Positions 44,253 to 44,564 of a stretch of 55,188 nt of DNA are shown here, piece after piece. The DNA comes from Ilumatobacter nonamiensis YM16-303. GTDB taxonomy: Bacteria; Actinomycetota; Acidimicrobiia; Acidimicrobiales; Ilumatobacteraceae. Position numbers and translations under genes: made by a program. The stretch covers positions 1 through 55,188 of the forward strand of contig NZ_BAOL01000040.1 in assembly GCF_000350145.1 (NCBI RefSeq), read 5' to 3'. The notes beneath the pieces were generated by a model that saw only the letters and a program-made list of their open reading frames with translations, was not told where the DNA came from and did no database searches. Position 1 is the stretch's first letter. Each line of letters begins with the position of its first letter.

Positions 44253-44564
44253 TCAGCAGACGTCGCAGCCCCCGTCGGCAGAGCCGGGCGCGGCCTGGAA
44301 CTCGACCTTCAGCTTCTTGCCGAGGCCACCCTTCGCGACGATCCGCATCGATTCGGCCATCCCGATCAGCTGCGGCGTGATCAGGATCTTGAACCGCTCG
44401 TGACGCAGCGTGCGGTACGGCTGCAGGTTCTTTCCCTTGACATTGGTGTCGACCGACACCTCGGCGACTTTGCCTCAACCGGTCGGGCGGATGAAGTCGA
44501 TCGACATCGTTCCGCCCTTCTTCTGGAGGAGGCGCTGCGCGTCGTCGGTGATCTCGATCTGCAT
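44253..44564 (-). CDS. HesB/IscA-like selenoprotein (in-frame UGA as Sec)
   Basis: Reads as one 103-residue HesB/IscA-type protein only if the TGA at 44475-44477 (codon 30) is translated. Upstream: MQIEITDDAQRLLQKKGG, MSIDFIRPTG; then U; downstream: GKVAEVSVDTNVKGKN ... GGCDVC at the C-terminus. HesB/IscA proteins start I.IT..A...L.. and have a Cys in GC(S)G at this place plus two Cys at the end (C100 and C103 here). Sec therefore replaces the first cluster- or metal-binding Cys. Both flanks keep the frame and the family pattern, which argues against decay. A SECIS-like hairpin follows the UGA. Standard gene calling would give only a 68-aa fragment from the GTG or ATG after the UGA. The role is presumably Fe-S related or redox; it is not established here. 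It is divergent from a VOC gene. Confidence 0.75.
44445..44477 (-). promoter_or_regulatory. Candidate bacterial SECIS element
   Basis: Runs from the UGA codon (44475-44477) to the end of an apical hairpin. After 14 nt comes GGUGUC, a GGUC loop, then GACACC: a 6-bp stem with a G at the loop start, 20 nt between UGA and loop. Bacterial SECIS elements need a loop with an early G about 16-37 nt after UGA. The GGUC loop also resembles the loop of E. coli fdhF, as I recall it. Confidence 0.7.

Follow-up and report, generated by a model that had tools for sequence, protein, structure and literature searches.

A probable selenoprotein family of predicted IscA-like fold, with an in-frame SECIS hairpin, in Ilumatobacter and its relatives

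Introduction

Proteins of the HesB/IscA type hold their ligand cysteines in the pattern C-x(63-65)-C-G-C, and the bacterial SECIS of Escherichia coli fdhF presents a GGUC loop and one bulged U. HesB-like proteins that contain selenocysteine (Sec) are known from genomes (PMC1794560). An earlier note on the DNA studied here stated that they had also been reported from metagenome surveys; in the one survey checked, that of the Sargasso Sea, HesB-like selenoproteins stand among the known families that were not detected (PMC1088965), and the statement found no support there. A 2026 inventory of 119 selenoprotein families and subfamilies (PMC13188914) holds two related entries, namely TIGR01911, with the motif UxGP in its Table 1, and NF041239, whose motif is given in the same table as CxxU, for which we found no fit on the CC site of that family; the hypothetical protein DG (NF049953, motif GUxG) is listed as well. 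The family described below was not found as such in Table 1 of this inventory, and it may have been described earlier elsewhere. The terms "acidimicrob", "actino" and "hesb" do not occur in the main text of the deep-Sep paper (PMC12013277), and literature searches on selenoproteins of the Acidimicrobiia and on selenocysteine in Ilumatobacter returned no selenoprotein paper by title.

The locus lies in a 55,188-nucleotide stretch of DNA from Ilumatobacter nonamiensis YM16-303, the whole of which is called the window hereafter. The proposal that it encodes a selenoprotein is strongly supported by the tRNA-Sec, SelA, SelB and SelD of the same genome, by Sec/Cys pairs among the relatives and by a SECIS hairpin. 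Judging from these sequence data, we put the probability that the in-frame UGA is decoded as Sec, with a bacterial SECIS hairpin inside the reading frame, at about 0.93.

The gene and its in-frame UGA

On the minus strand, positions 44564 to 44253 of the window read as an ATG that opens 29 residues to RPTG, a TGA at 44477-44475, a further 73 residues to CDVC and a closing TGA. The gene itself (44256-44564, minus strand) comprises 103 codons, the UGA being counted among them as codon 30 (44475-44477), in agreement with the 103-residue read-through protein that had been proposed; it would combine a single Sec with the C-terminal CDVC in an IscA-like predicted fold. Directly after UGA30 the protein continues with GKVAEVSVDT, and it ends in GGCDVC. 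The two C-terminal cysteines, also noted earlier, are C100 and C103 (CDVC at 44256-44267, minus strand), and the corresponding end of relatives has differently arranged Cys, C-x-H or, with a second Sec, U-x-H. None of the listed open reading frames of at least 80 amino acids in the window lies in the frame of this gene; callers that treat UGA as a stop would miss or truncate it.

Relatives with Sec or Cys at codon 30

A homologue is present in 31 of the 395 genomes of the class Acidimicrobiia, the window genome included, and a profile search recovered the same 31; all of them have a TGA inside the gene. The closest relatives that bear a name are Ilumatobacter and Ilumatobacteraceae MAGs, and in all 45 translated loci (L020-L064) the TGA falls at the aligned codon. 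Across the phylum Actinomycetota, the family was found in 14 of 396 genomes, eight with TGA, four with Cys and two represented by weak rows that were set aside (L077, E 4.7e-5, of the CC type and located where L122 is; L078, E 8.6e-4, not a convincing relative). A second class of the phylum carries the family in 21 of 66 genomes, codon 30 being TGA in ten and a Cys codon in 11. The comparison comprises 55 Sec-form loci with TGA at the aligned codon and 11 Cys-form loci, in which the codon is TGC ten times and TGT once; the homologues continue beyond codon 30, none of them stopping there. No relative was found in viral contigs and plasmids.

Some loci were handled separately. The fragment L092, lacking codon 30, was removed; the protein alignment and the tree exclude L058, L062 and L064, which run into contig ends, and the codon table excludes L029, which has one extra codon. 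Fifteen named loci may overlap the class genomes, duplicates having been removed only where 42 nucleotides were identical (51 rows, alignment A3). A quick tree built from 63 proteins requires three state changes for the Cys-30 rows, of which well-supported branches force one, and does not give their direction. Within the Sec family, L048 and L049 stand on a long branch (1.36) and share the tail APCPI[DN]L, with no C-x-H.

Inactivation or a sequencing error could also leave one in-frame stop in a gene this small. Against such a pseudogene or artefact, the codon is TGA in every one of the 31 class carriers, TAA and TAG being absent, and occupies the aligned position in 55 loci, and other relatives place Cys at codon 30. 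The protein sequence is conserved on either side of the UGA, and the class holds homologues with the in-frame TGA in 30 genomes besides that of the window, which rules against a chance occurrence. We regard the inactivated or artefactual stop as having next to no chance of being correct.

An in-frame hairpin after UGA30

Fourteen nucleotides after UGA30 begins the hairpin GGUGUC-GGUC-GACACC (44445-44460, minus strand), the apical loop of which begins 20 nucleotides after the A of the UGA. With a hairpin defined as a GGTC/GGUC loop closed by five or more base pairs, it occurs in 55/55 Sec forms and 0/11 Cys forms, the background being 6 of the 1267 TGA triplets of the window (both strands, UGA30 included). 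In an alignment of 51 distinct rows, each of the six pairs is standard throughout (306/306 cells), and two pairs are changed on both sides, a count as high as that being reached in none of 500 shuffles. One compensatory change is in L026, where U-A has become G-C and EVSVDT also reads EVAVAT; the other is in L029, from G-C to C-G. Codons +5 to +9 (GAG GTG TCG GTC GAC) show zero synonymous variation in 52-54 sequences, and conserved residues near the hairpin have two to four codons in use each.

Other measures are less telling. Folded alone, the stretch from the window has z = -2.42, and 4 of 200 shuffles are equally stable, which is not extreme. An Rfam scan of the SECIS region gave two chance matches and no other family. 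The bare pattern of UGA plus GGTC has 265 forward and 234 reverse matches in the genome itself, and its reversal has 71 and 86, counts that are uninformative because the pattern does not require a stem.

Lying inside the reading frame, the hairpin keeps EVSVDT nearly unchanged as long as codon 30 is Sec, and the Cys forms have lost it. The latter read EVAIDT, EAAIDT, EVAVDT, EIAFDT, EVVADM or EVVADV at the same site, the constraint having gone together with Sec.

Sec machinery of the genome

The genome that contains the window (4.28 Mb, 99.56% complete) has a tRNA-Sec that scores 63.2 bits against a cut-off of 47 and is also called by ARAGORN, a SelA (415.6 bits) adjoining a SelB (275.3 bits) on contig C299, and a SelD (368.6 bits) whose own reading frame contains one TGA. 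The selA, selB, selC and selD genes, for which a search had been proposed, were thus all found, and the opposing case of a genome without selB or selC did not arise. In SelD (L018; G000 contig C82, 3853-4770, minus strand), the TGA stands in the context GAG-U-GCKL, and the stable hairpin that comes after it has a loop other than GGUC. SelD is a probable second selenoprotein of this genome, and its hairpin shows that GGUC is no rule of this SelB.

UGA read-through occurs in bacteria, and codon 30 could be imagined to be read under a reassigned code or by leaky read-through, for example as Trp. A reassigned code is at odds with the neighbouring rng gene, which terminates in TGA, and Trp with the non-TGA relatives, in which the aligned residue is Cys in 11 of 11. 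The SECIS-type hairpin, present with every Sec form (55/55) and with no Cys form (0/11), and the Sec apparatus encoded in the genome likewise speak against non-Sec decoding, which we consider extremely improbable. Decoding of UGA30 as Sec is the reading retained in what follows.

In the class as a whole, all but one of the 31 carriers of the selenoprotein gene have a SelB at E <= 4.7e-78; the exception, G333 (72% complete), has no SelB at E <= 1e-60. Of the 364 class genomes that lack the gene, 229 match SelB at E <= 1e-60. SelB exceeds its curated cut-off in 221 of the 395 class genomes, and Sec use looks common in the Acidimicrobiia on these gene matches. In the second class, eight of the ten TGA carriers have a SelA above its cut-off and a ninth has a SelA fragment, compared with six of the 11 Cys carriers above the cut-off, a contrast that is weak and runs in the fitting direction; the TGA carrier G737 (80% complete) has no SelA. 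Two SelA matches over the cut-off occur in each of G707 (C306 and C426) and G772 (C74 and C7), which may stem from contamination, duplication or a SelA-like paralogue.

A second UGA and a variable C terminus

A second in-frame TGA stands near the C terminus in 16 of the 31 class carriers and in one second-class carrier (L083), 17 loci in all, separated from the stop by two or three codons (..PTURH-stop, ..GPGUQHG-stop); other relatives have Cys at this site (C-x-H). A hairpin of at least 6 bp, counted as the longest contiguous stem, with its loop 18-22 nucleotides after the second UGA was found in 15 of the 17, versus none of 12 Cys-98 loci. The latter are 12 of 13 such loci: L079, a Cys98 form that lies outside the 17 (ACRH, then TGA, then a second stop), was left out, its contig ending there. 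The exceptions among the 17 are L028, with a GGUC hairpin at 17 nucleotides, and L042, with an interrupted GGU hairpin; GGU itself is present at the loop in 16 of 17.

This second hairpin lies mostly beyond the stop codon of the gene. Shuffling of single loci gives modest p values, from 0.001 to 0.436. Ten of the hairpins (9 distinct) have a four-base loop, and their stems differ and covary, with 19 cells changed on both sides, against a shuffled mean of 5.7 and no shuffle out of 500 as high as 19. The 100% pairing in this alignment (A5) is partly a matter of choice, since A5 consists of those 10 of the 17 hairpins that share the four-base loop; the covariation is informative.

In the window, the terminal TGA (44253-44255, minus strand) was considered as a further Sec codon and rejected. 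Because a GGTC hairpin with a stem of at least five pairs follows the terminal TGA in none of the 21 single-Sec loci that end in TGA, the codon is taken as a true stop. The window does have a GGTC with a 4 bp stem at 15 nucleotides, a feature that is not common to the relatives, and the codons beyond the terminal TGA show no conservation among them.

Across the family, the C terminus carries CxxC, CC, CxI or C/U-x-H. A Sec-Cys pair is not universal, given that L041 and L063 are without any C-terminal Cys.

Predicted fold and family

The AlphaFold model of the window protein has a moderate pLDDT of 70.3 (14 sequences), with residues 95-103 under 50. A Foldseek search with this model ranks IscA, SufA, DsrR and similar entries first, and structure alignment places IscA-type entries at Z 6.3-8.7 and the next rows at 2.5 and below; only two rows reach Z >= 8, and below 8 the aligner warns of common arrangements. 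At the sequence level, a profile search found no match among solved structures up to E 10, and the window protein has no Pfam match at E <= 1. The 32 family members scanned touch three weak Pfam families of other kinds, one or two members each, and none of the 32 matches Fe-S_biosyn.

NF041239 behaves differently. It matches all 32 members scanned (best E 7.7e-8), and the window protein scores 25.6 bits, under the curated cut-off of 40. Over that cut-off, it is found in 4 of 316 phylum genomes (L118-L121), where the site reads GCCGG and no TGA lies inside the match, and one genome (G667) encodes both an NF041239 protein of this CC type and a Sec-family protein. An hhalign comparison with five CC-type proteins, the four NF041239 members over the cut-off and L122 just below it, gave 97.3% and E 2e-11, with Sec30 falling on the second Cys of the CC. 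The Sec family is accordingly predicted to be a new sister subfamily of NF041239.

Membership in the known HesB-like selenoprotein family TIGR01911 would fit the small size of the protein and its predicted fold class. The TIGR01911 model is matched at E <= 1 neither by the window protein nor by any of the 32 members, UxGP is absent from the alignment, and the window has U-G-K in place of the UxGP given in Table 1 of the inventory (PMC13188914); we consider this membership very unlikely. Neither the window protein nor any of the 32 members has NF049953, the hypothetical protein DG, among its matches. On the structure matches and the profile results together, the window protein probably has the IscA/SufA/DsrR fold and is related to NF041239 as a sister, not to TIGR01911. 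The designation HesB/IscA-like that was first given to it therefore stands for the predicted fold and fails for the sequence profiles (no Pfam, Fe-S_biosyn or TIGR01911 match).

Gene neighbourhood and proposed function

In the window, the RNase E/G gene and an opposite-strand glyoxalase-like gene lie upstream of the selenoprotein gene, and the genes for L21 and L27 lie downstream. The glyoxalase-like gene (PF18029; 44603-45031, plus strand) is situated between the RNase E/G and selenoprotein genes. The rng-rplU-rpmA setting described as conserved in the earlier note is thus real for the window and does not extend to the more distant relatives viewed, whose neighbours differ. Genes found next to the family outside the window include those of an alkyl-sulfatase-type metallo-beta-lactamase, an Rv2466c-like protein, a flavin amine oxidoreductase, LNT, an FMN reductase and an adenosine deaminase. 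The metallo-beta-lactamase gene follows the selenoprotein gene in L023 (1899-3191), L052 (3344-4612) and L055 (3346-4617) and is absent from that place in the window; its assignment comes from Pfam for L052 and from like sequence for L023 and L055, and in L052 it stands before rplU. As the neighbourhood is not constant, we draw no functional inference from it.

A selenolate at Sec30 would act together with the C-terminal Cys (C100/C103) or, in some relatives, with the second Sec. We see an even chance that the two form a redox pair, as a selenenylsulfide or diselenide. More tentatively, they could be ligands of a soft metal or an Fe-S unit, and some other role, such as that of a Se/S carrier, is less likely again.

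It is also conceivable that the selenoprotein belongs to IscA/HesB proper, as a genuine A-type Fe-S carrier whose first cluster-ligand Cys has become Sec. The predicted IscA/SufA fold, the conserved Sec/Cys at codon 30 and the C-terminal Cys of most relatives are in line with this idea, yet the window protein has no Pfam match at E <= 1 and the 32 members none to Fe-S_biosyn, the C terminus varies (CxxC, CC, CxI or C/U-x-H, with none in L041 and L063), and an Isc or Suf component was absent from the ten neighbour proteins scanned. Such a carrier seems to us unlikely. A broader and rather speculative picture is that of an IscA-fold selenoprotein family, a selenium version of the A-type carrier, where the selenolate of Sec30, alone or with that of the C-terminal Sec found beside HxH...UxH in the relatives with two UGA codons, would ligate a metal or an Fe-S/Fe-Se site or form an intramolecular diselenide, the second UGA being decoded by a hairpin largely beyond the stop.

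Irrespective of function, the family amounts to a natural experiment in which one protein occurs with Sec, the hairpin kept and EVSVDT nearly frozen, and with Cys, the hairpin lost and the residues free. The relatives with two UGA codons are also well suited to a small-scale study of SelB at work on two Sec sites, their gene being about 100 codons long.

Comparison with known systems

Among described proteins, the nearest is NF041239 (CC/Se motif, "Moor_selen_rel", a Moorella thermoacetica hypothetical protein), with which the family shares profile homology, the second Cys of the CC being the counterpart of Sec30; the two differ at the first position of the CC, where the Sec forms have Gly, Ser, Thr, Ala or His. 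With the HesB-like selenoprotein TIGR01911 it has in common an IscA-type fold class (HesB by name) and a Sec in a small protein, whereas there is no profile match between them and the motif in the window is U-G-K, not UxGP. IscA, SufA and DsrR (PDB 1r94, 2d2a, 1x0g and 2k4z) share the predicted fold, at Z 7.6-8.7 for these four, yet they show 10-17% identity to the window protein, which is further set apart by the lack of an Fe-S_biosyn match, by Sec30 and by its family's variable C terminus. In place of the three-Cys pattern of IscA, the window protein has U30-x69-C100-D-V-C103, and its relatives have CC, CxI, C/U-x-H or no such Cys. Finally, the SECIS of E. coli fdhF and the hairpin of this family are alike in lying shortly 3′ of the UGA and in presenting G and U in the apical loop, but the family's hairpin is without the bulged U and nearly invariant across two classes.
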